Source of the DNA: Acidobacteriota bacterium
GTDB taxonomy: Bacteria > Acidobacteriota > Vicinamibacteria > Vicinamibacterales > UBA823
NCBI GenBank assembly: GCA_002730525.1
Contig: PCAK01000031.1
Coordinates: 1-47,351, forward strand
Direction: 5' to 3'
Length of the DNA stretch: 47,351 nt
Shown: positions 3,300 through 44,941 of the stretch, in pieces
How positions within the stretch are numbered: the first letter of the stretch is position 1
Layout of the letters: each line of letters begins with the position of its first letter
Program-made: the position numbers and the translations under genes
The notes under the pieces: generated by a model
What the model saw: only the letters and a program-made list of their open reading frames with translations
What the model was told of the DNA's origin: nothing
The model's database searches: none

Positions 3300-4487
3300 A
3301 TGCTGCTTGTAAACAGATTCAGGTTCGTCGGTGTCGCGTACGTTGCGGTGGCGGTCAGTGCCGTGCTGGGTGCCGCGGCGCTGCCGGCCTCGGCCCAGCC
3401 GGCGCAACCCGATCAGCGGTTCAGAGCCGAGGACTTCGACTACGGGTCGCGCTTCGAGCTACCCGAGGGGGAGCATCCCGAAATCTGGAACCCCGCGAAG
3501 CGGAAGCTGATCGCCGGCGGCCCGATGATCGGCGGTACGGTCCGTGCGACCGATGCGCGAACCTACTGCGCCATGGCCGGCGCCGGCTACGACTTTCTCT
3601 GGGTGGAGATGCAACACGAGGCGATCTCCTGGGAGCAGGTGGCGCGCCTCTGGCGGACATGTCCAGGCCCTGCCGCGCCAGGGGTCCGCGTAGCCTACGC
3701 GGACGAGCGTGAGATCCAGCATGCCACCGACATGGGCTCGCTCGTCATCGTGGTGCCGACCATCGACAGTGTCGAGGAGGCCCAGGCCGCCATCGACTGG
3801 ACCTACTTTCCACCGATCGGCCGGCGTAGCTCCGGCGGCGGCCAGGGGCCGAGCGAACTGTGGAACGACGTGCCCGGGGGCTACCGGCAGACGTGGAACG
3901 CCAACGTCGTCCTGTTCCTGATGATCGAAACGCTCGAGGGTGTCGAGAACGCGCGCGAGATCGCGAGATTGCCCGGCGTGACGGGGCTGTTCGCGGCGAG
4001 CGGCGACCTGGGGAACTTCTCCGGCTTCGGCCAGGGCGACGCCGAGTACGAGGCGCTGATCACCGAGGTCGCGGACGCGGCGCTCGAGGCGGGGATCCAT
4101 GCCTGCGGTCCGCTGCGGTGGGCGGACCGCCCGGCGTTCACCTGCTTCCAGGCGGGTACAGAGGCGGCCAACATCCGTCGGGGCGCGCAGGCCGAGATTC
4201 AGCTGGCCGAAGAGCGCTTCGGCCGCACAGGTTCGGGCGGGACGTCGATGACACGGTCGGGCGCGGCCGGTGTTCTGGCGAATCTGACGGCCGAGTGCGG
4301 GTCGATCACGTATGCCGACGATTGCTACGCGGCGGCGGCGGCGGCCGTCACGGCCGCTGGTGCGATGGCGGCGCCCGAGCAGGCGCAGATCCGGCAACGA
4401 CTGCGTGACATCATCGGCGCGAACCGGAGCCATGCCGCGCGGCTTCGCGAGATCGCCTCGCGAGGCGGGCTGGCTCTGGACCCCTAG
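3300..4487 (+). CDS. Exported HpcH/HpaI-type aldolase
   Basis: This 395-residue protein belongs to the class II HpcH/HpaI aldolase/citrate lyase family, which cleaves or forms 2-keto-acid adducts using a divalent metal. The barrel (about 70-310) keeps the family landmarks: WVEMQHE (His106), the metal Glu in FLMIET (Glu210) and an Asp in AASGDLGNF (Asp236). Two features are unusual. It has a clear Sec signal ending PASAQ near residue 33, whereas the family is normally cytoplasmic. It also has an extra C-terminal helical tail of about 80 residues rich in Ala with two Cys. It is the second gene of a pair with the VWA protein. The substrate is unknown; a 2-keto-3-deoxy sugar acid would fit the neighbourhood (inference). 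Confidence 0.82.
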   Translation: MLLVNRFRFVGVAYVAVAVSAVLGAAALPASAQPAQPDQRFRAEDFDYGSRFELPEGEHPEIWNPAKRKLIAGGPMIGGTVRATDARTYCAMAGAGYDFLWVEMQHEAISWEQVARLWRTCPGPAAPGVRVAYADEREIQHATDMGSLVIVVPTIDSVEEAQAAIDWTYFPPIGRRSSGGGQGPSELWNDVPGGYRQTWNANVVLFLMIETLEGVENAREIARLPGVTGLFAASGDLGNFSGFGQGDAEYEALITEVADAALEAGIHACGPLRWADRPAFTCFQAGTEAANIRRGAQAEIQLAEERFGRTGSGGTSMTRSGAAGVLANLTAECGSITYADDCYAAAAAAVTAAGAMAAPEQAQIRQRLRDIIGANRSHAARLREIASRGGLALDP

Positions 4488-6617: not shown

Positions 6618-8153
6618 CTAGACCGGGCGAGGTAGGCGGGGCACCCTGACCGGGCTCTCCGCCTGCACCCGGTTCCAGATGCGGCGCCCGACCCGGTCGG
6701 CTTCATCGAGGACGGCGTCCTCGTCCATCGTGAGGACCCGGTGGTCGCGCATGACGAATCGCCCGTCGATCATCGAGGATTCAATGTCGGACGGTTGACC
6801 GTTGTGGATCCACGCCGAGGCGATCCGGCCCGCCGGCACCAGGTGGGCCTTCAGCGTGTCCAGGACAAGGAGGTCGGCCTTCTTGCCAACCTCGAGCGTG
6901 CCAAGGCTCTCGCGCTGATGGACGGCGCGCGCGCCGTTCTCGGTCGCGTCGGCGAGGATGTCTTCCGGCTGCGGCTGGAGGCCCGGCCGCTCGTCGTCGC
7001 GCCGGGTCCGCTCCGTTCTGAGCGCGGTCCGCATCACCTCGAAGAGGTCGTTCGTGTTGTTGTCGGTGCCGAGCGCGATCGGGCAGCCGGCGGCCCGCAG
7101 GGCGGGAATCGGCGGACTGACCCCGCGGTTCGCCGCCATGGCGGCCTGGTGCGAGACGATTGTGCCCGAGCGGGCCAGTATCGCGATCTCGCCCGCGTCG
7201 ACGTACCGGGCGTGTGCCGCGAACAGGCGAGGGCCGAGGAAGTCGTGCTGGTCGAGATAGGCCGTCGGCCGGACGCCGTGGTAGCGCAGCATGAACTCGA
7301 ACTCAGCGCGGCTCTGGTTCAGATGGATGGTGTAGCCGACGTCGTGCGCCTCGGCGAAGGCACGGACGGCCTGCAGGAGTTCCGGCGAGGAAGTCTCGGT
7401 AAGCGCGGCCGCGGGAAAGACGGAGATCCGTCCGTCTCGCGCGCCGTGCCACGTGCTGAAGAGGTCCTCGATCCGCTGCATCCCTGCGTCGCGCCGGTCG
7501 GGTGAGAACCGCGGCGTCTCGCTCGCCGCGAGCCGTTCCGGCGACAGCGGGCCGGCCACGTTCTCACTGTCGCGAACCGACTCGGCGAAGACGCAGCGGA
7601 GGCCGCTGTCGGCCAAGGCCTCGGCGTCCTGCGCGATGTTTCCCGTGTACTCCACGATCGTCGTCGTCCCCGTCCGGATCGCTTCGAGCGCCGCGACGGT
7701 GACCATTAGCGTGGCTTCCTCGCCCTCGAGCAGGCTGCCGGGGGAGACCGCTAGGCGATAGGAATTCGGGAAGCCGAAGTCTTCGTTGAAGCCCCGGGCC
7801 AGGACGGCCCCCATGTGCGCGTGACAGTTGATGAGGCCGGGGAAGAGCGCTTTGCGCCGGCCGTCGTAGACGTCGGCTCCCGGATACGCCTGGAGGACGT
7901 CGTCGGTCGAGCCGAGCGCCGCGATTACGCTGCCTTCGACCGCAAGCGCCACGTCCTCCTGCACGCTATCGGCGTTCACCACCGTGGTGTGGGTGAAGAC
8001 GACGGTGTCGCTCTGCGCCTTCTCGCCGGCGCCACCACGATCGAAGAGGAGCGTGGCGGCGCTCGCGCCGGCGCCGGCGAGAAGGCGGCGCCGGCCGGGG
8101 TCGACGGGGTCGGTTGCCGGAATCGACGACGACCGGGGTTCGCCGGGTGTCAC
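6618..8153 (-). CDS. TAT-exported amidohydrolase-superfamily protein
   Basis: This 511-residue protein begins with a twin-arginine signal (GRRRLLAGAG, residues 20-29). It is followed by an amidohydrolase-superfamily chain of the AtzA/TrzA/guanine-deaminase branch. The metal ligands are visible: HAH at 111-113 after PGLINC, His277 in TIHLNQS, His314 in AAHARY and Asp364 in LGTDNN. The composite beta-sandwich is at the two ends (GRRKALFPG; GTLEVGKKADLLVLD). Such enzymes hydrolytically deaminate or dechlorinate rings, or cleave amides; the substrate cannot be read from sequence. The GTG start lies two bases after the stop codon of the preceding NHL lipoprotein, so the two are translated from one message. 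Confidence 0.85.
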   Translation of the reverse strand: MTPGEPRSSSIPATDPVDPGRRRLLAGAGASAATLLFDRGGAGEKAQSDTVVFTHTTVVNADSVQEDVALAVEGSVIAALGSTDDVLQAYPGADVYDGRRKALFPGLINCHAHMGAVLARGFNEDFGFPNSYRLAVSPGSLLEGEEATLMVTVAALEAIRTGTTTIVEYTGNIAQDAEALADSGLRCVFAESVRDSENVAGPLSPERLAASETPRFSPDRRDAGMQRIEDLFSTWHGARDGRISVFPAAALTETSSPELLQAVRAFAEAHDVGYTIHLNQSRAEFEFMLRYHGVRPTAYLDQHDFLGPRLFAAHARYVDAGEIAILARSGTIVSHQAAMAANRGVSPPIPALRAAGCPIALGTDNNTNDLFEVMRTALRTERTRRDDERPGLQPQPEDILADATENGARAVHQRESLGTLEVGKKADLLVLDTLKAHLVPAGRIASAWIHNGQPSDIESSMIDGRFVMRDHRVLTMDEDAVLDEADRVGRRIWNRVQAESPVRVPRLPRPV

Positions 8154-8155
8154 GG

Positions 8156-9298
8156 CTACTGCACCGAGTACTTCGTGAACGCCCCGCCGGCGAACCGCAG
8201 GGAGTTCGGCCCCTCGGCGGCGTACACGTTGCCGTCGGCGTCGACGGCCACGCCTTCGCCTGCCGCGCCCTGGTACGGCCGACTCTCGGCGTCGTGCGGC
8301 GGGATGTAGCCGGTGATGACGTCTTCGTCGAGGGGGCCGATCCGAACACCGTTCGTCCAGGGGAAGTGGCTGTTCGGGCTCGATTCGGAGTCGATCGCGT
8401 AGAGCATCCCTTCATGCATGAAGATGCCGCTGATCCGTCCGTAGGCGTAGCGCGACTCGAGGTAGTTACCCTCCTGGTCGAAGATCTCGATCCGATGGTT
8501 ACCGCGGTCGGCGACCCAGAGCCGCCCCTGATCGTCGAATTCGAGCGCGTGCGGCGTCCGGAACTCGCCGTGCATCGATCCGATCTGTCCCCACTCGGTG
8601 AGGTAATTGCCCTCGGCGTCGAACTTGACGATTCGCCCGGTCGAGCCCTCTGGGTGCGGGGGGCTGTTCTGCCCGTTGTGCCCGTCGCTGACGTAGATGT
8701 TGCCGTCCGGCCCGACGATGACGTCGTTCGGCTGGTTGAGTTGGCCGGGCTCGCTGCCCGGTTGGCCCGCCACACCGATCGACATCAGTAGTTCGCCGTC
8801 GGCGCTGAACTGGTGGACCTGGTGGCCCCGGGTGCCTGCCTGGTTCCCGGCGAAGTCGGTCACCCAGACCGTCCCGTCGTTGGCCGCATGGATGCCGTGC
8901 GGCGTGACGAAGATGTCGGCGCCGAAGTTGGCGAGGATCTCACCGGTGTTCCGGTCGAACTTGAAGATCGGTGGAACCGGGTTGCTCTCACAGTCGGTGG
9001 GGCCGCCGCTCAGCGCACCCGCACCGCAGCGCTCGTAGGCCCAGACGTGCCCATCGTTCGGATCGATGTCGACCCCGGCCGTCGAGCCCCACTCTCGCCC
9101 TTCGGGCAGCGTGCCCCAGTTGCGCGTCTCGTTCGGGGCCGGGTTCGGCAGGCCCTCGCCGGTGATCAGGTTGCCGCTGGCGACGACCGCTACGGCTTCC
9201 GGCATCGCTTCCGGTGCGCCCGATTCCGAGGCGCAGCCGGCCAGCAGGAAGACGGCAGAGATGAACAGCACGGACTTCAGAGTGTGCAACGATGACAT
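8156..9298 (-). CDS. NHL-repeat lipoprotein, PAL-like (peptidyl-hydroxyglycine lyase fold)
   Basis: This 380-residue protein starts at ATG 9298 with AGGGAG seven bases upstream. A lipobox FLLAGC sets Cys22 as the lipid anchor. The mature chain is a six-bladed NHL-type propeller with clear repeats (DGTVWVTDF, DGNIYVSDGHNGQ, QGRLWVADRGNHRIEIFD, DGNVYAAEG). The blades carry TPHGIHA and TPHALEF histidines, like the PAL family whose eukaryotic members cleave peptidyl-hydroxyglycine using zinc. For exported bacterial members the reaction is unproven. It is paralogous to 41176-42327, which shares the ERCGA..PHGIH..VWVTD order. The amidohydrolase gene follows at once, so a binding or delivery role for that enzyme is possible (inference). 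Confidence 0.8.
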   Translation of the reverse strand: MSSLHTLKSVLFISAVFLLAGCASESGAPEAMPEAVAVVASGNLITGEGLPNPAPNETRNWGTLPEGREWGSTAGVDIDPNDGHVWAYERCGAGALSGGPTDCESNPVPPIFKFDRNTGEILANFGADIFVTPHGIHAANDGTVWVTDFAGNQAGTRGHQVHQFSADGELLMSIGVAGQPGSEPGQLNQPNDVIVGPDGNIYVSDGHNGQNSPPHPEGSTGRIVKFDAEGNYLTEWGQIGSMHGEFRTPHALEFDDQGRLWVADRGNHRIEIFDQEGNYLESRYAYGRISGIFMHEGMLYAIDSESSPNSHFPWTNGVRIGPLDEDVITGYIPPHDAESRPYQGAAGEGVAVDADGNVYAAEGPNSLRFAGGAFTKYSVQ

Positions 9299-9366
9299 GG
9301 TCAACTCCCTTCGCTACGGCAGATGCGGCGGATGCCGAACGCTACCGTAGCACGAAGCACTTCGGA

Positions 9367-10935
9367 TTACAGCAGGCGCGCATCTCTAAGGACCGACGGC
9401 ACGAGTCGGATGATCGAGCCAGGCGTCGAGGCGGTCAGCGCGACCCCGGTGCCTCCGCCGGTGGGGTCCTGGCGCGCGACGTAGACGTAGCCGTCGGGGC
9501 CGACGACGACATCGCGCACCCGGCCGAACTGCGCGAACAGCACCTCCTGGTGCGTCACCTCGCGGCCGGTGATTTCGAGGCGTCGAAGTTCCTGACCCCA
9601 CAGGCCGCCGACGAGCAGACTGTTCGTCCAGCCTGGGAACGGGTCGCCCGAGTAGAACTCGATGCCCGCCGGTGCGAGCGTCGGCGTGAAGTAGACGATC
9701 GGCGACTCCATGCCCTCGCGCGAGACCTCCGTGATGCCCCGCTGGATCCCAGACGAGATGACCCCCCAGCCATAGTTGCGTCCGGGGTCGACGACGTTGA
9801 TCTCGTCGCCTGCGCTCGGTCCGTGCTCGGACTCCCAGAGCGCCCCGGTCTCCGGATGCCAGGCCAGCCCCTGGGGATTCCGGTGGCCGTAGCTCCAGAT
9901 CGAGGGAACCACGCCGTCCCGACCGGCGAACGGGTTGTCGCCGGGAATCGTGCCGTCGTCATTGACGCGATGGATCTTGCCCAGGGGGACGGCCAGATCC
10001 TGCGCGTGCGCCATCACGTCGCGTTCACCGATCGAGAAGAAGAGGTGATCGGCGTCGTCGAAGACGAGACGCGTGCCGTAGTGCGTGTCACTGGACGTGT
10101 ACAGGTCGAGCGGCGCGCGATAGATCACTTCCTGGTCGACCCACTCGCCATCGTCGTTGATCCGGCCCCGGACGAACACCTCCATGTTGGGCGGACTCGG
10201 TGGGTCGCGCCCGGGTGGCATGCCGGGCGTCGCTTCGGAGGCGGACGGCGTGTGCCCGGGCATGACCTCCGAGTACGAGAGGTAGATCCAGCCGTTGTCG
10301 GCGTATTGCGGATGGATCGCGACGTCGAGCATGCCCGCGTCCTGACGCTCCCAGACTTCCGGCGTGCCCGCCACCGGTTCGGAGAGCTCGCCGTCGGCGA
10401 TGATGCGCAGCGTCCCGCGCCGTTCGGTCACCAACATCCGGCCGTCGGGCAGAAAGGCCAAGGCCCACGGCGTCTCCAGGCCGTCGACGATGGTCTCGAT
10501 CCTGAATGTGTGGCGTTCCGAGCCGATGACCTCACCGTCCGCTCCCGGGACGAACGCGGGCGCTTCGACGAAGCTACCGGTCCGTCTGCGGATGAACTGG
10601 ACGAGCGCCCACACCTCCGGAGCATCGAGCAGATCTGCGAACGGTGGCATCTCGGTGTCGGCGACGCCCTGTTCGATTGCCGTGATGATGGCGTCATCAT
10701 CGACTGAATCGAGCCAGGCCTGATCGAACAGGCTGACCGCCCGACCCCCGGAAGGGTCGGAGCCGTGACACGCGGCGCACTCCTGCTCGAACAGTTCGGC
10801 CGCGGCCTCGAGACGGTTGCGAGTCGGAGTCTGCGGCTCGAATTGCGTGATGACGCCGGCCGTGGCGACCAACACCATCCCGCACAGGATGGCCGCTCCG
10901 ACGAGCGTCCTACCAGTCGACAACCGAGCCATCAT
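9367..10935 (-). CDS. Cytochrome c-PQQ aldose dehydrogenase fusion (Asd/YliI type)
   Basis: This 522-residue protein has an N-terminal hydrophobic signal or anchor (11-30) and a small cytochrome c with CAACH (53-57) and a candidate Met ligand in TEMPPF. From about residue 140 comes a GSDH-type six-bladed propeller. Landmarks of soluble PQQ aldose dehydrogenases are present: WALAFLPDGRMLVTERRGTL, GHRNPQGLAW, SEHGPSAGDEINVV and NYGWG. The expected reaction is oxidation of aldose sugars to lactones in the periplasm, with electrons passing from PQQH2 to its own heme. The start codon lies 26 bases inside the end of the upstream dehydratase gene and has no clear ribosome site, so translational coupling is likely. 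No PQQ-synthesis genes are in the window. Confidence 0.88.
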   Translation of the reverse strand: MMARLSTGRTLVGAAILCGMVLVATAGVITQFEPQTPTRNRLEAAAELFEQECAACHGSDPSGGRAVSLFDQAWLDSVDDDAIITAIEQGVADTEMPPFADLLDAPEVWALVQFIRRRTGSFVEAPAFVPGADGEVIGSERHTFRIETIVDGLETPWALAFLPDGRMLVTERRGTLRIIADGELSEPVAGTPEVWERQDAGMLDVAIHPQYADNGWIYLSYSEVMPGHTPSASEATPGMPPGRDPPSPPNMEVFVRGRINDDGEWVDQEVIYRAPLDLYTSSDTHYGTRLVFDDADHLFFSIGERDVMAHAQDLAVPLGKIHRVNDDGTIPGDNPFAGRDGVVPSIWSYGHRNPQGLAWHPETGALWESEHGPSAGDEINVVDPGRNYGWGVISSGIQRGITEVSREGMESPIVYFTPTLAPAGIEFYSGDPFPGWTNSLLVGGLWGQELRRLEITGREVTHQEVLFAQFGRVRDVVVGPDGYVYVARQDPTGGGTGVALTASTPGSIIRLVPSVLRDARLL

Positions 10936-12109
10936 CGGGGTCGAATTGGGTGGTGTACGGCCTGGGTTCGCCGACCTCCGCCATCAGTTTGTCTTCGTCG
11001 ATGGTGATGCCGAGGCCGGGGCCGGTCGGGATCGGCCGGTAGCCGTCGGCGACGGGCGGCAGCGGCTCGGCGAGCAGGTCGTACTCGCGGTCACCGCGCT
11101 CCTGGACCATGAAGTTCGGGATGCAGGCGGCCAGTTGCAAGCTGGCGGCGAGCGAGCAGGGGCCGTTCGGATTGTGGGGCGCGATCGGCGCGTAGTAGGC
11201 CTCGGCCATGCCCGCGATGATCTTCAGTTCGGTGATGCCGCCTGCGTAGCAGACGTCGGGCTGCAGGATCATGGCGGCCCTCTTCTCGAGAATTTCGCGG
11301 AATCCCCACTTGGTGAAGACGCGTTCGCCGGTGGCCAACGGGATATGCGTCTTCAGCGCGAGGTCGGCCATGACGTCGACATTGAGCGCCTGGACGATCT
11401 CCTCGTAGAACCAGGGATGATAGGGCTCGAGGGCCTTGATGAGAAGGCTGGCGGTGGTCGGCTGCACCGCGCCGTGAAAATCGAGGCCAATGTCAACGCC
11501 GGTACCGTGCTGGTCGCGCAGCGCGCCGAACCGTTCGGCGACCTCCTCGATGAACTTGCTGCCTTCGGTGTACTTGAAGGGCTGACGGGCCGATCTCGGC
11601 CCGACCTTCATCGCCGTGACGCCGGTCTCCTCGCTGACCGTGCCGTAGACCTTCGCCCGGTCGCGCGTCGGACCACCGAAGAGCTGACAGATCGGCACGC
11701 CGTAGCACTTGCCGGTGATGTCCCAGAGCGCCTGGTCGATCCCGGACGAGATGGCCGTCTTGATCGGTCCACCCCGGTAGAACGCGCCGCGGTGAATCGC
11801 CTGCCAGTGGTGCACGACAGGACGGGGATCCTTCCCGATCAGGTAGTCGCCGACTTCGAGCGCGCCGGCGGCGCAGGCCTTGGCATCGTCCTTGAGCATC
11901 TCGCCCCAGCCGGTGATGCCGGCATCGGTCGAGATCTTGACGAAAACCCAGGAGTTCGTCAGGACGAACGATTCGATATTCGTGACCTTGATCGCGTCTC
12001 CGGGGCTGACGGGCGCCTCCTGGGCGGCGGCGCCCGCGGCGCTGAGACCGACGAAGGCTGCGGGCCCGGTGGCCAGGAAGGCGCGCCGGTCGAATCCGTT
12101 CCTTTTCAT
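10910..12109 (-). CDS. TAT-exported enolase-superfamily dehydratase, galactonate-dehydratase-like
   Basis: This 399-residue protein has a twin-arginine signal (FDRRAFLAT, 6-14). It is followed by the mandelate racemase/muconate lactonizing capping domain and barrel. The ligand set matches D-galactonate dehydratase: LDFHG (Asp210, His212), Glu236 in FYEEI, Glu262 in ATGERVF and the acid/base His312 in APHNPNGP. In that family the enzyme dehydrates an aldonic acid to a 2-keto-3-deoxy acid. Export is unusual, because known members are cytoplasmic. Its gene overlaps the PQQ aldose dehydrogenase gene by 26 bases. A TATAAT box 30 bases upstream of the ATG gives a short leader. The exact sugar acid is not determined; gluconate or other aldonates are possible. 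Confidence 0.85.
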   Translation of the reverse strand: MKRNGFDRRAFLATGPAAFVGLSAAGAAAQEAPVSPGDAIKVTNIESFVLTNSWVFVKISTDAGITGWGEMLKDDAKACAAGALEVGDYLIGKDPRPVVHHWQAIHRGAFYRGGPIKTAISSGIDQALWDITGKCYGVPICQLFGGPTRDRAKVYGTVSEETGVTAMKVGPRSARQPFKYTEGSKFIEEVAERFGALRDQHGTGVDIGLDFHGAVQPTTASLLIKALEPYHPWFYEEIVQALNVDVMADLALKTHIPLATGERVFTKWGFREILEKRAAMILQPDVCYAGGITELKIIAGMAEAYYAPIAPHNPNGPCSLAASLQLAACIPNFMVQERGDREYDLLAEPLPPVADGYRPIPTGPGLGITIDEDKLMAEVGEPRPYTTQFDPDDGSVVDW

Positions 12110-13180: not shown

Positions 13181-14248
13181 ATGCCACTCCGCGATTTCGT
13201 CCTGGCGCCCGGCCTCGTGCTTGGCCTGGCGCTGGCGGTCAGCGCGCCTGCCTCGGCCCAGCCGTTCTCGGCGCAGCAGATCGGTGATGTCGTCCGCCTG
13301 GAGGACGCGCGCAGTGGCATGGCGGTGTCGATCGCGCCGGGCGTCGGCAATATCGGCGTCGCCCTGACCGTCAACGACGAGCCGGTGGTCTGGTGGCCCT
13401 ATGCGTCGCCCGCCGAGTTCGCGGCCAGACCCAGCCTGGGCGGCATCCCGTTCATGGGGCCCTGGGCGAACCGGCTCGACGAACAGGCCTTCTACGCCAA
13501 CGGACGCCGGTACGCTTTCGACATGGGCCTCGGCAACGTGCGGGGCGAGATTCCGATTCACGGATTCCTGGCGACGGCCGAGTGGCAGCTCGTCGACGCG
13601 TCCGCCGATACGACGTCCGCATGGGCGACGAGCCGGCTCGAGTTCTACAAGGAGCCGGCCTGGATCTCGCAGTTCCCGTTTGCGCACACGATCGAGATGA
13701 CCTACCGGCTTAGGGACGGGATGCTCGAGGTGGCCACGCGGCTGCACAACCTGTCGACGGAGCCGATGCCGGTCGCGATCGGGTTCCATCCGTACTTCCA
13801 GCTCACCGACTCGCGGCGCGACGACTGGACGATCTCGGTCGGTGCGCGGACCCGATGGCTGCTCGACGATCGGAAGCTGCCGACGGGCGAGACCGAGCCG
13901 ATCGACCGACTGTTTCCGGATCCTCAGGCCGTCCCGCTGCGGGATCACGAACTGGACGAGGTATTCGCGGATCTCGTGCGTGACGCCGACGGCCGCGCGG
14001 TGATGACGGTGAAAGGTCGCCAGCAGCAGGTCGACGTCATCTTCGGTCGCAACTGGCGCGCGGCGGTCGTCTGGGCGCCGAAGCCCGCCTCGCCCGGTCA
14101 GGACCGGAATTTCGTCTGCTTCGAGCCGATGGCCGGCATCAGCAACGCGTTGAATCTGGCCGAGCGGGGCGTCTACTCGGAGCTGCAGAGCATCTCCCCG
14201 GACGGCGTCTGGGAGGAGAGCTTCTGGGTCCGGCCGACCGGGTTCTGA
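13181..14248 (+). CDS. Exported aldose 1-epimerase (mutarotase)
   Basis: This 355-residue protein starts at ATG 13181, where a clean Sec signal (10-27, ending APASAQ) begins; the frame stays open upstream but that part is not signal-like. It is an aldose 1-epimerase/galactose mutarotase-fold protein. The two active-site His are in IPIHGFL (His127) and VAIGFHPYF (His203), with the C-terminal catalytic Glu in CFEPMAGISNALN. It interconverts alpha and beta anomers, here in the periplasm, which would help a downstream PQQ aldose dehydrogenase that prefers one anomer (inference). A TAAGAT box at 13162-13167 is only 13 bases before the ATG and there is no Shine-Dalgarno site, so the message may have almost no leader. 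Confidence 0.85.
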   Translation: MPLRDFVLAPGLVLGLALAVSAPASAQPFSAQQIGDVVRLEDARSGMAVSIAPGVGNIGVALTVNDEPVVWWPYASPAEFAARPSLGGIPFMGPWANRLDEQAFYANGRRYAFDMGLGNVRGEIPIHGFLATAEWQLVDASADTTSAWATSRLEFYKEPAWISQFPFAHTIEMTYRLRDGMLEVATRLHNLSTEPMPVAIGFHPYFQLTDSRRDDWTISVGARTRWLLDDRKLPTGETEPIDRLFPDPQAVPLRDHELDEVFADLVRDADGRAVMTVKGRQQQVDVIFGRNWRAAVVWAPKPASPGQDRNFVCFEPMAGISNALNLAERGVYSELQSISPDGVWEESFWVRPTGF

Positions 14249-21083: not shown

Positions 21084-21896
21084 TCACTGGAGTCGCCGAA
21101 GTTCGACCCTGCGAAACTGGATCGGGTGGCTCTCGGACTGCAGCGAGATCGTACCTCCGGACAGCAACAGACCCGCTTGCCGTGCGGCGAGGTCGCGGGA
21201 ATGTTCCTCGCGGTCGTCGAGTTGCGGCGCCTCGTATTCGAGGACGACCTTGCCGTCGATCAGGTGCCGGATGACCTGGTCGCCGCGCACCTCTACCTCC
21301 ACGGTCACCCACGCGTCGCCGCCGTAGGTCAGTGACAACGAGTTGGTGCAGTGTTGGGTGACGAGTTCGCCGGCCATGACGACGTTGGTGCCCGGCGTGC
21401 ACAGGTTGGCGGTGGCGCGCTCGCCCTCGCCGGTCCCGCCGAGGAACTGCACCTCGATCGAGACCGGAAACTCTTGTTCCACCGCCATCGCAGAGGGCGG
21501 TTCGCCGTGCAGCATCACGCCGCTGTTGCGGACCGCCCAGTTCGGCCCGCCGGGCGCCTGCTCGCCGACGAAGCGGTACTCGACGCGCAGCAGATAGTGC
21601 GAGAACGACTGCTCGTAGAACAGATGCCCGAAGCGGCCGGCGAAGTCGTCGTACTGGTCGTAGGCGACCGTGAGTAGGCCGCCCTCGACCCGGAAGGTCT
21701 CGCCGTAGTTATCCCCGAGTTCGTAGCCGGTGATCTTGGGCGTCCAGCCGTTCAGGTCGCGGCCGTTGAAGAGCTCGATCCAGTCGGACTGAGCCGGCGT
21801 GACCAGGCGCGCGCTGTCTCCGTCGAAGGCGAGCACGCTAACGCCAGTCAGGATCGCGAGAACGACGAGGGTGAACCAGGTCTTTGTTGTCATCAT
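21084..21896 (-). CDS. Exported DUF1080 (3-keto-disaccharide hydrolase-like) protein
   Basis: This 270-residue protein has a Sec signal (7-24) and a single concanavalin-like jelly roll of the DUF1080 family (WIELFNGRDLNGWTPKI at the start; VRNSGVMLHG in the middle; GTISLQSESHPIQFRRVELR at the end). The family includes enzymes that cleave 3-keto-glycosides after oxidation by Gfo/Idh-type enzymes. One such oxidoreductase is encoded at 25931-27415, but not next to it. ATGATG gives two possible starts, and no Shine-Dalgarno site is visible before them. Upstream is a TATAAT box overlapped by a palindrome, so this gene is the best candidate here for control by a repressor. Confidence 0.82.
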   Translation of the reverse strand: MMTTKTWFTLVVLAILTGVSVLAFDGDSARLVTPAQSDWIELFNGRDLNGWTPKITGYELGDNYGETFRVEGGLLTVAYDQYDDFAGRFGHLFYEQSFSHYLLRVEYRFVGEQAPGGPNWAVRNSGVMLHGEPPSAMAVEQEFPVSIEVQFLGGTGEGERATANLCTPGTNVVMAGELVTQHCTNSLSLTYGGDAWVTVEVEVRGDQVIRHLIDGKVVLEYEAPQLDDREEHSRDLAARQAGLLLSGGTISLQSESHPIQFRRVELRRLQ

Positions 21897-22439: not shown

Positions 22440-23720
22440 ATGGATCGTCGACGCTTTGTCAAGACGGTGGGAGCGAGCGCGGGAACGTTGGCGCTCGGCA
22501 CGAACGGCGTTCTGAACGCGGCGTCTGGCGACGTCGTGGCGCCCGCATCCCAGTCGACGCAGGGGACGGGAAGCGACGTCACCGTGGACGTGGCAGTCGT
22601 GGGTGCCGGCGTCATGGGCAACTGGACGGCGCTCCACCTTCGGGAGATGGGCCTGTCGGTGGCGCTAATCGATCAGTACGGGGCCGGGAACTCGAAGTCG
22701 AGTTCGCCGGGCGAGATCCGGGGGATGCGTCTCACCTACGGTGAGGACGAACACGAGATGCTCTGGGCGCGCGATGCCTGCGAGCAGTGGAAGATTCGCG
22801 AGGCGGAGTTCGGCACCCGGATGTTCTACCAGTGCGGCGGCCTCGCGTTCAGGCGCGAATGGACCGCTCGTAACAACGCGGAGCGCGCGCTGTTCGACAA
22901 GCACGGGGTGCCGTACGAGGTGATCCCGAACGACGATTTGGTCCGGCGCTGGCCGCAGGCGCCGCCCCCGAGCGAAGAACACTTCGGCTTCTATCACCCC
23001 TGGGGCGGGGTGCTGTCGCCGCGAGATACCAACATGGCTGTGGCGACGGCGTTCAAGGAGAAGGGCGGCAGGTTCCTGCTGGGGAAGGCCGCGCCGGGTG
23101 CGCGGGCCGGGGGCTCGCTCCAGACGGTGACGCTCTCGTCAGGTGAGACGGTCAGCGCCGGCACGTTCGTGTTTGCCGTGGGGGCCTGGCTGCCGAAGGT
23201 GTTTCCCGAGGTGATGGCGGGCAAGCTCTCGGTGCGGAAGGCTGCCTACAACATGATCGGCACGCCACCCGGCGACCATCGCTTCGCCGTGCCCAACCTC
23301 CCGAACACCGGTCTCGGGCTGCCGAGCATCAATGGCGCCGGTTTCGGGCTGTTGATCAATCCGACCGACGAAGTGGATCCCGACCAGTACGAGCGTCTGC
23401 CGAGCGCGGAGGAAACGGCCCGGGTCAGGCAGACCCTGGCTAGCCGTTTCCCTGCACTCAAGGACCAGCCGATCCTCCACGTCTGGACCTGTCAGACCGA
23501 ATTCTCGGTCGACGGGCAGTGCATCTTCGACCTCCATCCCGAGATGGACAACGTCTGGCTGGTCGGCGGCGGCTCCTGGCATGCGTTCAAGATCGGCCCG
23601 GTGATCGGCGACTACGTCGCCCACCGGGTGACCGGCGAGGAAAAGGGATTGCCCGAAGCCAACCTGAGTGGCTCGGAGCTGGCGGCGCTCTTCAAGCTGA
23701 AGGCGGAGACATTTGCTTAA
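22440..23720 (+). CDS. TAT-exported FAD oxidoreductase, monomeric sarcosine oxidase-like
   Basis: This 426-residue protein starts at ATG 22440 with GAGGAG upstream; an in-frame GTG at 22404 overlaps the previous stop but lacks a site. It has a twin-arginine signal (MDRRRFVKTVG). The DAO/FAD fold starts with VAVVGAGVMG (51-60). HVWTCQTEFSVDGQCIFDLH resembles the stretch of sarcosine oxidase and N-methyltryptophan oxidase that holds the Cys bound covalently to FAD. The family oxidises secondary amines (N-methyl amino acids). TAT export fits flavin loading in the cytoplasm. It lies between two c-heme genes and its end meets the start of the next gene, so all three probably act together. Confidence 0.85.
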   Translation: MDRRRFVKTVGASAGTLALGTNGVLNAASGDVVAPASQSTQGTGSDVTVDVAVVGAGVMGNWTALHLREMGLSVALIDQYGAGNSKSSSPGEIRGMRLTYGEDEHEMLWARDACEQWKIREAEFGTRMFYQCGGLAFRREWTARNNAERALFDKHGVPYEVIPNDDLVRRWPQAPPPSEEHFGFYHPWGGVLSPRDTNMAVATAFKEKGGRFLLGKAAPGARAGGSLQTVTLSSGETVSAGTFVFAVGAWLPKVFPEVMAGKLSVRKAAYNMIGTPPGDHRFAVPNLPNTGLGLPSINGAGFGLLINPTDEVDPDQYERLPSAEETARVRQTLASRFPALKDQPILHVWTCQTEFSVDGQCIFDLHPEMDNVWLVGGGSWHAFKIGPVIGDYVAHRVTGEEKGLPEANLSGSELAALFKLKAETFA

Positions 23721-23721
23721 C

Positions 23722-25857
23722 ATGATGACGAGACTCTGGTTGGTTGGGTTGCTCGTGGGCCTGCTGTTCGGCCCGAACCTCGGCGCCGCACAGGAGAGCC
23801 TTCCTGACGAAATTCGTCTTGACCTGGAAGAGAACGGCGGGTTGTTCGTGCCGGACGGGTTCGAGGCGCAGGCGGTCATCAACCAGTTCGAGGGCCGAGT
23901 CCGGCACATTGCCGTGGGCGACAACGGCGACGTCTACGTGAAGCTCCGCGATGCCCATGAAGAGAATGGCAACGCGGTTCTGCGCGACACGAACGGCGAT
24001 GGACGGCTCGACGACATCAGGTACTTCGGGAAGTACCCGATCTACGGCCGATACGGGACCGCCATGCGGATCCATGACGGCTACCTGTACTTCAGCACAC
24101 AGAAGACGGTCTACCGTCAGAAGCTGACACCCGGCCAGATGGTGCCCGATAGCGAGATCGAGGCGATCGTCGTCGACCCCAACGAGCCGCCCGCGCGCGA
24201 GCACAACGCCAAGCCGATCGCCTTCGACGACGCAGGACATCTGTTCGTTCCGTTCGGCGCGCCTTCCAATTCCTGCCAGGATCCGAAGCGCACCCCGGGC
24301 CAGCCAGGTGTGGATCCGTGTCCGCAGCTCGGCCCCTACGGGGGCGTCTGGCGTTTCGACGCCGACACGCCGAACCAGAGCCAGGAGGACGGCACCCTAT
24401 TCGCCACCGGTATCCGGAGCCTGGTCGGGATGGATTGGAATCCCGTGGACCGGCAGCTCTACACGGTGATGCACGGGCGCGACAGCCTGCTGCGGATGTT
24501 CCCCAACCACTTCGACGGGTGGGAAAGCGCCCTGCTACCGGCTGAGGAGTTTCTACGGGTGACGGAGGGCGCCGACTTCGGCTGGCCGTACTGCCACTAC
24601 GACCAGCTGCAGGGCAAGAAAGTGCTGGCGCCCGAATACGGGGGCGATGGGCAGACCGTCGGTCGATGCAGTGATTACGACCTACCCATCAGGGGCTTTC
24701 CGGGCCACTGGGCGCCCAACGACATCGTCTTCTATCACGGCGACCAATTCCCGGACCGTTATCGAAACGGCGCCTTCGTCGCCTTCCACGGCTCGACGAA
24801 CCGCGCGCCCTATCCCCAGTCCGGCTACATCATCGGCTTCGTGCCGTTCGCGAATGGCGAGCCCAGCGGTCCGACGGAAGTCTTCGTCGATGGATTCGCC
24901 AGAGTCGACCCGATCGTGTCGGCCGGCGACGCGGTCTTCCGGCCGATGGGCATCGCGATTGGGCCCGATGGTTCGATGTACGTGGGTGAAACCGAGCATG
25001 GGGCGATCTGGCGGATCCGCTTCACCGGCGACGCGGCGACCTTCGGGGAGAACCAGTTGGCGGCGATGAAGGCACGCGAAGCGCTGAGCCACATCCGCAC
25101 TCCCGATCCCGTGGCCGACAACCTTTCGCCTGCAGTCCTCACCGGCGGCGCGCTCACCTACGAGTCCTATTGCGCGACCTGCCACCAAGCCGATGGCGAA
25201 GGTGACGGTGCCCGCTTTCCGCCCATTGCGAGAACCGAGTGGGTGAGTGGCGACAAGAACCGGCTCATCGATCTCACCCTGAATGGGATGGAGGGTGACA
25301 TCGAGGTGAACGGCGAGAGCTACAGCAACGTCATGCCGCAGCACAGCTTCTTGACCGATCAGGAACTCGGGGAGCTCCTGACCTACCTTCGGGCAGGGTT
25401 TGGCAACGACGCGAGCGGGGTCAGCGAGGAAGAGGTGCGCAGACGCAGAAACGGCGCCTCAGGCACGACGCTGAAGATCAGGCTGACCAGCGTCTTCGTC
25501 GACGATCAGGCGGAGGCGCTGGGCTTCTACACCGAAATCCTGGGCTTCCAGAAGAAGGAAGACTTTCCCGTCGGCCCATTCCGGTGGCTGACCGTCGTGG
25601 CCCCCGGCGCTGAGGACGGCCCCGAGCTGCTCCTGGAGCCCAGCGACAATCCCGCTGCCCAAGCCTTCAAGCAGGCGATGTTCGAGCAGGGCATCGCCGC
25701 CGCCGCGTTCGAGGTCGAGGATGTGCAGGCGACCTACGAACGGTTGCGGGAGTCAGGCGTCGACTTTTTCACCGACCCGACCTCTGTCGGCACGGCGACC
25801 ATTGCCGTCTTCGACGACACGGGTGGCAACCTGATTCAGATCTACGAGACGCCATGA
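23722..25857 (+). CDS. Sorbosone-dehydrogenase-like propeller / cytochrome c / glyoxalase (VOC) fusion
   Basis: This protein of about 711 residues has a Sec signal (to about 24). An L-sorbosone/PQQ glucose-dehydrogenase-like propeller (about 30-455) includes GIRSLVGMDWNP, GADFGWPYCHYD and PMGIAIGPDGSMYVGE. A cytochrome c domain follows with CATCH at 484-488 and a candidate Met in NVMPQHSF. From residue 584 a complete VOC/glyoxalase domain begins LKIRLTSVFVDDQAEALGFY and ends IQIYETP. VOC proteins of this type are usually separate cytoplasmic proteins; here the domain is joined in frame with no ATG at the join. Start is ATG 23722, or TTG 23713 with GGAG closer; either overlaps or abuts the flavoprotein stop. 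The substrate is unknown. Confidence 0.85.
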   Translation: MMTRLWLVGLLVGLLFGPNLGAAQESLPDEIRLDLEENGGLFVPDGFEAQAVINQFEGRVRHIAVGDNGDVYVKLRDAHEENGNAVLRDTNGDGRLDDIRYFGKYPIYGRYGTAMRIHDGYLYFSTQKTVYRQKLTPGQMVPDSEIEAIVVDPNEPPAREHNAKPIAFDDAGHLFVPFGAPSNSCQDPKRTPGQPGVDPCPQLGPYGGVWRFDADTPNQSQEDGTLFATGIRSLVGMDWNPVDRQLYTVMHGRDSLLRMFPNHFDGWESALLPAEEFLRVTEGADFGWPYCHYDQLQGKKVLAPEYGGDGQTVGRCSDYDLPIRGFPGHWAPNDIVFYHGDQFPDRYRNGAFVAFHGSTNRAPYPQSGYIIGFVPFANGEPSGPTEVFVDGFARVDPIVSAGDAVFRPMGIAIGPDGSMYVGETEHGAIWRIRFTGDAATFGENQLAAMKAREALSHIRTPDPVADNLSPAVLTGGALTYESYCATCHQADGEGDGARFPPIARTEWVSGDKNRLIDLTLNGMEGDIEVNGESYSNVMPQHSFLTDQELGELLTYLRAGFGNDASGVSEEEVRRRRNGASGTTLKIRLTSVFVDDQAEALGFYTEILGFQKKEDFPVGPFRWLTVVAPGAEDGPELLLEPSDNPAAQAFKQAMFEQGIAAAAFEVEDVQATYERLRESGVDFFTDPTSVGTATIAVFDDTGGNLIQIYETP

Positions 25858-25930: not shown

Positions 25931-27415
25931 ATGAGCATATCCAAGAATAGCGGTGGGGCCGCGCGGTCCGGGCTGTCGCGGCGGGCATTCCTGGAACGTT
26001 CGGCGTTGGCGACGGGGGGGATGATGATCGTCCCGCGTCATGTGCTGGGTGGGGTCGGCTACCAAGCCCCGAGCGACCGGCTCAACATCGCCGGCGTTGG
26101 CGTCGGCGGTCGGGGTGCCGGCATCCTGCGCGGCGCGAGTGGCTACACCGAAGAGACCGGGAGGACCCTCGACAACGTTGTCGCACTCTGCGACGTCGAC
26201 GAGGAACGGGCCGCCGAAACGTACGCGCGGTTTCCGCAAGCGAAGCGCTACACCGACTACCGCGTGATGCTCGACGCGATGCCGGACGGCATCGACGCCG
26301 TGATGGTCGCGACGCCGGACCATATGCACGCGGTCGTTGCGATGGCGGCGATGCAATTGGGCAAACACGTCTACGTCGAGAAACCGTTGACACACGATGT
26401 CTACGAGGCCCGGATGCTCACCGAGGCGGCCCGGCGCTACGGAGTCGCCACGCAGATGGGCAATCAGGGGAATTCGGGAGAGGGCATCCGCCAGATCTGC
26501 GAGTGGATCTGGGCCGGCGCGATCGGCGAGGTGCGCACCGTTCACGCCTGGACCAATCGGCCCGTCTGGCCGCAGGGTCTCACGCGCCCCGTTGACACAC
26601 CGCCCGTGCCGGCCACGCTCGACTGGGATCTCTGGCTGGGCACCGCCCCGGTGCGCTCGTATCATCCCGCCTACCTGCCTTTCAGCTGGCGCGGGTGGTG
26701 GGACTACGGCACCGGCGCGTTGGGGGATATGGCCTGCCACATCATCGACCCGATCTTCAAAGCGCTGAAGCTCGGATATCCGACGAGCGTCGAGGCGAGT
26801 GCGTCGGTGTTCGTCGACGACTGGAATCCGCTGCCTAACCTCGGCAGTGCACCCAACTCCTCGGTGATCCACTTCGACTTTCCCGGGCGCGAAGGGATGC
26901 CGCCCGTCCAGGTCACCTGGTACGACGGCGGCCTTCTGCCTCGCCGACCGGCGGAGCTGGGGGAGGACGAGATGTTGGGCGACGGGGATGGGGGATGTCT
27001 CTTCGTCGGGAGCCGAGGCTCGCTCATGTGCGAGACGTACGGCCGCAACCCAGTGCTCCTGCCGACGTCGAGGATGGAGGATTTCGAGCAGCCGGCTCCC
27101 ACGCTGGCGCGCGTCGACGGCGACACGGAGGGCCACCAGCGTGTTTGGGTGGACGCCTGCAAGGGCGGTCCGTCGTGCACTTCGAACTTCGACTACTCCG
27201 GGCCGTTGACCGAGATGGTCCTGATGGGCAATCTTGCCCTCCGCAGCTTCATGCTCAGCGAATCGGTCCTGGACGACCGAGACCGCGAGCAAACCCACTA
27301 CCTGGGCCGGAAGAAGCTCCTCTGGGACGGCGCGGCGATGCGCATCACGAACCTCAAAGACGCCAACCAGTACGTTCGCCGGGAGTACCGCGAGGGTTGG
27401 TCGCTCGGTGTGTGA
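25931..27415 (+). CDS. TAT-exported Gfo/Idh/MocA oxidoreductase
   Basis: This 494-residue protein starts at ATG 25931 with GAGGAG upstream. It has a twin-arginine signal ([11 protein letters not shown], 15-25). An N-terminal Rossmann domain (GVGVGGRG, 55-62), the family EKP motif (VEKPL, Glu150-Pro152) and the C-terminal alpha/beta domain with DMACHIIDP follow. The family uses a tightly held NAD(P) to oxidise or exchange sugars, as in periplasmic glucose-fructose oxidoreductase; TAT export carries the cofactor across. In related bacteria such enzymes make 3-keto-glycosides that DUF1080 proteins hydrolyse, and one is encoded at 21084-21896. An NHL protein gene follows after 18 bases. Confidence 0.88.
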
Positions 27416-43789: not shown

Positions 43790-44941
43790 TCAGCGGGGGT
43801 CGCGATACGTCGACACCGGCGGGAGCTGCGCGCCGGACAGGTCGGCCGGTAAGCTTTCTTCGGCTACGACCTTGTGGGTCAGCGTGCCGATTCCATCGAT
43901 GCTGGCGCTGATCGTCTCGCCCGCCTGCAGGTATCCGGAGCCTGTCGCGCGCTCGACGCGACCCGCACCGGTTCCGCCGGACGTCCCGCTCTGCAGAACG
44001 TCACCAGGGAAGACCGTGATGAGCGACGACGCGTACTCGATGAGCTCAGGAATGTTGTGGATCATGTCTCCGGCCCTGGCCTCCTGGACGGTCACGCCGT
44101 CGATGACCAGGGTCTGGTGCAGGCGCTCCATCGGATCACCGTAGAACTCCTTGGGGACGATCCACGGCCCGTGGGGCGCGAACGTGTCATGGCCCTTGCC
44201 GACGAACCAGTCCGACCCGGAGCCGTAGCCCCCCGGAGGACGCCCGCCACGATCGGAGATATCCATGGCGACCATGTAGCCGAACACGTGGTCGTAGGCA
44301 CGGCTCGCGGAGATGTACTTGCCCGCGCGGCCAAAGACGATAGCCATTTCGACTTCCCATTCGATCCGGTCCCGGCCGTAGGGCATCACGACGTCATCAC
44401 CGCTACCGATGATCGCGCCGCGGGTCGGCTTCAGGAACAGATAGGGGACGCCCCGGTTCTCTTGCCGCTCACTGGTCCGCGCACGTAGCTCCTCCTCGGT
44501 GCAGCCCTCGCACGCGTGCGTGTAGAAGTTGACCGCCGCATTCATGAGCTTGCTGGGATATAGGATCGGAGCAAGGATCTTGACGTCTCCGACGTCGTGG
44601 ACGTAGTCGGCGCGCGCGCCGCCCGAAAGCCGGTTCCCGGCGACGAGGTCGTTGACGATCTCGTAGAGCCGGTACTTGACGCCGTACTCGTACTGGCCGA
44701 TCAGTTCGAGCATGTCGGCCGGCATGGCGAGGCGGGGGTAGGTGTGATCCAGTTCCAGCGCGCTGTTCGCCGCGCCGATGTCGACGATCAGCGAATCCCG
44801 CAGCACGAGTCCCACGATGGCCTCTCCATCGATGCGGAAGGTGCCGACCTTGAAGGGCTCGACCGACTCCCTGAACTGGGCCTGTAGCCCGGCCGGGGCC
44901 GCGAGCACGACGAACAGGGCGGCGAGAATGGTTGATCGCAT
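43790..44941 (-). CDS. Exported fumarylacetoacetate-hydrolase-family protein
   Basis: This 383-residue protein starts at ATG 44941 with GGAGG upstream and has a Sec signal (to about 22, GLQAQ). The FAH-type C-terminal domain includes IEWEVEMAIVFG with the metal Glu residues, FGYMVAMDISDRG with the metal Asp, KGHDTFAPHGPW, and FPGDVLQSGTSGGTG. The family hydrolyses C-C bonds or dehydrates keto acids. Members include 2-keto-3-deoxy-sugar-acid dehydratases and diketo-deoxy-fuconate hydrolase, which would fit the sugar-acid theme here. Export is unusual for the family. Four Cys/His residues in THACEGCTEE could add a metal site or disulfide. Confidence 0.83.
   Translation of the reverse strand: MRSTILAALFVVLAAPAGLQAQFRESVEPFKVGTFRIDGEAIVGLVLRDSLIVDIGAANSALELDHTYPRLAMPADMLELIGQYEYGVKYRLYEIVNDLVAGNRLSGGARADYVHDVGDVKILAPILYPSKLMNAAVNFYTHACEGCTEEELRARTSERQENRGVPYLFLKPTRGAIIGSGDDVVMPYGRDRIEWEVEMAIVFGRAGKYISASRAYDHVFGYMVAMDISDRGGRPPGGYGSGSDWFVGKGHDTFAPHGPWIVPKEFYGDPMERLHQTLVIDGVTVQEARAGDMIHNIPELIEYASSLITVFPGDVLQSGTSGGTGAGRVERATGSGYLQAGETISASIDGIGTLTHKVVAEESLPADLSGAQLPPVSTYRDPR

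Follow-up and report, generated by a model that had tools for sequence, protein, structure and literature searches.

A galactonate-dehydratase-like subfamily with a putative twin-arginine leader and without barrel helix alpha1, encoded in Acidobacteriota and other phyla

Sugar-acid dehydration is normally treated as a cytoplasmic reaction, and the locus described here raises the question whether it might take place outside the cytoplasm. The window, that is, the whole analysed stretch of 47,351 nucleotides from an Acidobacteriota bacterium, encodes a galactonate-dehydratase-like protein of the enolase superfamily (10910..12109, minus strand; 399 residues), putatively exported by the twin-arginine (Tat) system. 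The initial annotation had coupled it to a neighbouring aldose dehydrogenase and asked whether an entire non-phosphorylative sugar pathway lies outside the cytoplasm. To this proposal our analysis adds a putatively exported subfamily spread across phyla, a single clade without the leader, and a missing barrel helix.

Domain searches revealed MR_MLE_N and MR_MLE_C (Pfam) in the dehydratase, and the NCBIfam galactonate dehydratase model NF010624 gave 352.5 bits against a cut-off of 311, placing the protein in this family. The metal ligands Asp210, Glu236 and Glu262 and the beta3 histidine His212 are present, and the His-Asp dyad Asp285/His312 and Glu337 also occupy the expected places, so that the three acidic ligands, the dyad and the beta3 histidine of a galactonate dehydratase are all found. 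The ligand set proposed earlier (Asp210, His212, Glu236, Glu262 and His312) is thereby borne out at every position. In the alignment, His212, Glu236, Glu262, Asp285, His312 and Glu337 are invariant in 84 of 84 family members, and position 210 is always Asp or Glu (Glu in 17). Judged by these residues, the dehydratase is predicted to be a catalytically complete enzyme of the aldonate type, from which we infer its reaction and substrate class. The substrates of its closest annotated homologues are themselves unproven, and its own substrate could fall outside the aldonates. Compared with NF010624/PRK14017 and the Ralstonia pickettii structures 3rr1 and 3rra, the protein is alike in full-length match, in catalytic and metal-binding residues and in fold. 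However, it carries a Tat leader, lacks barrel helix alpha1 and has EEI instead of EEP after the second metal ligand, and no kinase or aldolase partner was found for it.

The AlphaFold2 model of the dehydratase, built from 54 sequences (pLDDT 86.4, pTM 0.85), adopts the enolase-superfamily fold, with 3rr1 as the best solved structural match (Z 46.2, 1.9 Å over 355 residues). Strands beta1 (residues 151-155) and beta2 (residues 166-169) are modelled without an intervening helix at a pLDDT of about 95, whereas the same segment of 3rr1 has the full helix length. The shortened junction (residues 155-163; 11621..11647, minus strand) is also seen in the alignment, where the stretch from Tyr155 to Gly163 is exactly 9 residues long in each of the 84 family members, against 17 in the sister subfamily (52-55% identity) and 17-27 in other relatives. 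The complete galactonate dehydratase barrel, with alpha1 between beta1 and beta2, is thus not formed in the model. The constant length indicates that the loss of alpha1 is fixed in the subfamily and is not an error of a single sequence. This shortening of the active-site barrel, which the initial annotation did not contain, could alter the chemistry.

The dehydratase gene overlaps by 26 bp (10910..10935, minus strand) a gene encoding a fusion of cytochrome c with a PQQ-type aldose sugar dehydrogenase (9367..10935, minus strand; 522 residues; PF13442 and PF07995), and both open reading frames and their strands are as first described. The dehydrogenase has an export-type N-terminus, a single CxxCH motif for heme c attachment (CAACH, residues 53-57; 10765..10779, minus strand) and a GSDH domain scoring 380 bits. 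The His of its THYG motif and the Arg of RNPQG align with the quinone-site residues of the solved homologues. It shares the GSDH domain and these quinone-site residues with the soluble PQQ aldose sugar dehydrogenases (2g8s of E. coli and the glucose dehydrogenase 7cdy), but adds an N-terminal membrane or signal segment and the fused cytochrome c, and lies in a genome without detected pqqC or pqqE. The search for pqqC found none in this genome and passed the cut-off in 12 of 100 relatives; pqqE was matched only below the cut-off, and own PQQ synthesis was thus not detected. Since PQQ could be taken up from outside, the missing synthesis has no bearing on the family membership of the dehydrogenase.

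Two more genes complete a same-strand run, an NHL-repeat beta-propeller lipoprotein directly after the dehydrogenase (8156..9304, minus strand) and, as the last member, a deaminase-like amidohydrolase (6618..8153, minus strand) that appears exported by its N-terminus. A second genome of the genus keeps the order, strands and 26-bp overlap of the pair (94% and 83% identical), and the whole four-gene run, including the syntenic NHL gene, is the same there (L162; also L028, Acidobacteria bacterium UBA2161). Because the pair recurs in a second genome it is not a sequencing artefact, and an origin of the pair by chance or artefact was rejected on the repeated order and overlap. The overlap and the matching chemistry make cooperation between dehydratase and dehydrogenase plausible within the genus; it would require PQQ from outside and a lactonase for lactone opening. 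The NHL lipoprotein is at most a candidate lactonase, since among solved proteins it is matched best by TRIM/NHL and peptidylglycine-lyase-type propellers and SGL matches it only weakly.

Outside the genus the pair breaks up. Orthologues of the dehydratase at 73-94% identity were found in 80 named genomes. In 74 of these the sequence extends 1.5 kb or further downstream, and a GSDH gene follows in one of these 74 loci, the same-genus L028. A general operon with the dehydrogenase was therefore rejected outside the genus. Conversely, there are relatives (G018, G047, G062, G031 and others) that encode homologues of the dehydrogenase with 55-66% identity and for which the dehydratase search gave no orthologue at its threshold. 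In three order-level relatives PQQ dehydrogenases lie 0.3-3.2 kb from the dehydratase, adjacent and on the same strand in one only; these genomes are rich in such genes, and the neighbours were not counted as support for coupling. The adjacent case (G016, L150:7314-10837) is an exported PF01011-type PQQ dehydrogenase of an unrelated quinoprotein family, encoded on the same strand 327 bp downstream; a GSDH gene lies 3.8 kb from the dehydratase in that genome. Of the oxidation-dehydration pair proposed by the initial annotation, the exported sugar dehydrogenase of the right chemistry (GSDH domain, quinone-site His and Arg) thus stands, whereas functional coupling of the pair is not supported, its conservation in relatives ending at the genus.

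The dehydratase might then be exported and yet have nothing to do with the dehydrogenase, its substrate being a different sugar acid, such as one released when uronate or sulfated polysaccharides are degraded, and the overlap an accident of placement. The neighbours of the orthologues agree with this, since they differ across most of the 80 named genomes (sulfatase, DUF1501, DUF1552, Gfo/Idh/MocA and OMP/TonB-type proteins). Their variability also led us to reject a substrate assignment from neighbours, as they name no substrate. The maximum-likelihood tree points the same way: the window dehydratase and its genus sister fall within a supported clade (100/99) of Bacteroidota, Verrucomicrobiota and Planctomycetota sequences, apart from most Acidobacteriota ones. 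This grouping with other phyla suggests horizontal transfer, and the window copy was probably acquired in this way. However, both genomes of the genus have retained the overlap and the order of the four genes, and one other genome has the unrelated PQQ dehydrogenase close downstream on the same strand, so we regard a dehydratase of unrelated function as rather unlikely, if still a serious competitor.

At the other extreme, the whole non-phosphorylative pathway could be extracytoplasmic, running through mutarotase, aldose dehydrogenase, the possible NHL lactonase, dehydratase and, at the end, an HpcH aldolase or FAH hydrolase, so that the cell would import nothing but pyruvate and small aldehydes. 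Every enzyme type is encoded in the window with export signals. Of the helper proteins listed by the initial annotation, an aldose 1-epimerase (mutarotase; 13187..14248, plus strand), an HpcH/HpaI-type aldolase (3300..4487, plus strand), an RraA-like protein and an FAH-family protein (43790..44941, minus strand) each start with an export-type segment. The HpcH protein can be aligned with HpaI aldolases, and the His, Arg, Glu and Asp of the active site are conserved in it. Synteny of the island extends to the sister genome. Profile searches of the genome that contains the window, which is 99.2% complete in 45 contigs, are compatible with such a route. Three enolase-superfamily proteins passed the cut-off, namely the window dehydratase, a MenC-scoring protein and one scoring as cis-3-hydroxyproline dehydratase; the sole IlvD/Edd protein was assigned to IlvD by its score. 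The searches of these two families thus left the window dehydratase as the only candidate for an aldonate dehydratase. The lower enzyme of the De Ley-Doudoroff route was not detected, as KDPG/KDPGal aldolase (PF01081) had no match in this genome in a search that matched in 8 of 14 controls; one DapA-like DHDPS protein is present. FAH-family proteins are normally cytoplasmic. All five of this genome (L166-L170), including the one in the window, start with signal-like or lipoprotein segments, and both HpcH proteins over the cut-off have signal-like starts. These signals, together with the absence of KDPG aldolase and of another dehydratase candidate in the families searched, leave room for an extracytoplasmic route.

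Nevertheless, the linkage beyond the genus that would mark a wholly extracytoplasmic Dahms/Weimberg-type pathway was not found, no PQQ synthesis was detected, the helper genes are spread across 40 kb on both strands, and no dehydratase orthologue was detected in the relatives mentioned above that have a dehydrogenase homologue. One of these relatives (G031) holds a compact aldose cluster (L156:241-11821) of MFS carrier, GntR regulator, IlvD/Edd dehydratase, FAH hydrolase, FAD-linked oxidase, GSDH homologue, heme-binding DUF7133 protein and mutarotase. As in the window, the GSDH homologue (66% identical over the GSDH part) lies near a mutarotase; unlike in the window, the dehydratase is a leaderless IlvD/Edd enzyme accompanied by the carrier, the regulator and the FAH hydrolase. 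By its gene content this is the classical split arrangement, with oxidation predicted outside and dehydration inside. The cluster speaks for a function of this type of dehydrogenase in sugar catabolism and weakens the claim that the dehydrogenase belongs with the exported dehydratase. We therefore consider a complete pathway outside the cytoplasm quite improbable.

The window as a whole looks like an island of exported enzymes. Most genes whose N-termini were read have Tat, Sec or lipoprotein-type starts, and the signal-bearing set comprises HpcH, FAH, RraA-like, Gfo/Idh/MocA, class V aminotransferase, DAO, sulfite oxidase-type and DUF1080 proteins and several NHL/PQQ propellers. One open reading frame (23713-25857) encodes a fusion of a GSDH-like propeller with a cytochrome c and a glyoxalase domain, and its counterparts in the sister genome are split around a DUF2961 gene. 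The window also encodes a DUF1080 protein (3-keto-disaccharide hydrolase) and a Tat-type Gfo/Idh/MocA oxidoreductase (21084-21896 and 25931-27415), which resemble parts of the periplasmic 3-ketoglycoside route of LacABC and DUF1080 (PMC9007349). That route likewise combines periplasmic sugar oxidation with a subsequent enzyme step, but its chemistry is the hydrolysis of 3-keto sugars, whereas the reaction proposed here is aldonate dehydration.

The evidence for the location of the dehydratase lies in its leader (residues 1-30; 12020..12109, minus strand). The N-terminus reads MKRNGFDRRAFLATGPAAFVGLSAAGAAAQ, with Arg8-Arg9 in the context FDRRAFLA, followed by a hydrophobic segment and, around residue 30, by the cleavage-like site AAAQ, in agreement with the Tat signal first reported; the region is of low confidence in the AlphaFold2 model. 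We read the N-termini of 83 orthologues, 80 from the named genomes and three from order-level relatives. An RR leader of the pattern [DNS]RR-x-[WFL]-L-[RKQ] is present in 67 of them, 66 by automatic count plus L004, whose leader was found in an upstream frame (MPQMNRRMCLKSM). The consensus, [D/N/S]-R-R-S-[W/F/L]-L-[R/K/Q], matches the Tat pattern. Mean identity to the window protein is 29% over residues 10-30 and 82% over residues 40-399, and such fast divergence of the leader ahead of a conserved body is as expected for a cleaved leader. The RR consensus leader precedes a mature domain that is complete without it, as in Tat substrates, and the genome encodes TatC (219 bits), so the export machinery is represented. 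Taken together, these sequence features make export of the dehydratase via Tat well supported. A vestigial or unrecognised leader on a cytoplasmic enzyme is very improbable: 13 orthologues from Latescibacterota, Gemmatimonadota and Poribacteria do entirely without a leader, but a dead leader would be expected to lose its RR motif, and here 67 of the 83 sequences retain this motif within its Tat-consensus surroundings while the rest of the leader drifts ahead of a body complete in itself.

In those 13 leaderless orthologues, the leader is missing as a block and the proteins start about 13 residues ahead of the conserved body; three more of the 83 are ambiguous. In the maximum-likelihood tree the 13 form one clade (100/92) nested among leader-bearing sequences, which suggests that the leader was lost once, a single loss being the simplest reading. 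The nesting marks the leader as a removable module and implies that the enzyme body is also able to work in the cytoplasm. In five leaderless loci (L042, L044, L047, L049 and L054; Latescibacterota and one Gemmatimonadota bin), the upstream regions have PhyH, glyoxalase-like, cupin-like and SDR genes in common, and also a leaderless HpcH aldolase where the contig extends that far. The leaderless aldolase and the SDR near the Latescibacterota orthologues are at most suggestive of a substrate. Overall, the orthologues come from at least seven phyla (Acidobacteriota, Verrucomicrobiota, Planctomycetota, Bacteroidota, Latescibacterota, Gemmatimonadota and Poribacteria), the phylum being taken from each record title.

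Based on these observations, we propose with moderate confidence that the dehydratase belongs to a distinct, horizontally spread galactonate-dehydratase-like subfamily without barrel helix alpha1, and that, after Tat-dependent export, it acts outside the cytoplasm as the dehydratase of an aldonate-like sugar acid. The protein would pass folded through the Tat system. Mg2+ bound to Asp210, Glu236 and Glu262 would then stabilize the enediolate, while His312-Asp285 would take the C2 proton of the sugar acid and His212 would aid the departure of the C3 hydroxyl, yielding a 2-keto-3-deoxy acid; these steps are established enolase-superfamily chemistry. In this genus only, the gene would have joined a run in which it overlaps the gene for an exported aldose dehydrogenase, a possible maker of the substrate of the dehydratase. 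No description of an exported aldonate dehydratase was found in the open-access literature, which does not prove that none exists; the paper on SAR202 enolase paralogues mentions neither signal peptides nor the periplasm (PMC6946804).

A broader scheme would make the aldonate pathway of the genus largely extracytoplasmic, with an exported aldose dehydrogenase passing electrons to cytochrome c, the helix-trimmed Tat dehydratase, HpcH and FAH proteins cleaving sugar acids in the periplasm and small fragments being imported, as part of a Tat-exported aldonate dehydratase subfamily dehydrating in the periplasm of several phyla. We hold this scheme to be unlikely, though worth stating. The conserved, putatively exported subfamily across phyla, together with its one leaderless clade, offers a natural test of where the reaction takes place and why. 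The constant loss of one helix from an otherwise conserved (beta/alpha)7-beta barrel enzyme poses a clean structural question. Finally, a genome with signals on five FAH and on HpcH proteins and with no KDPG aldolase detected lends itself well to the study of how uncultivated phyla of soil and sea might metabolise carbon outside the cytoplasm.
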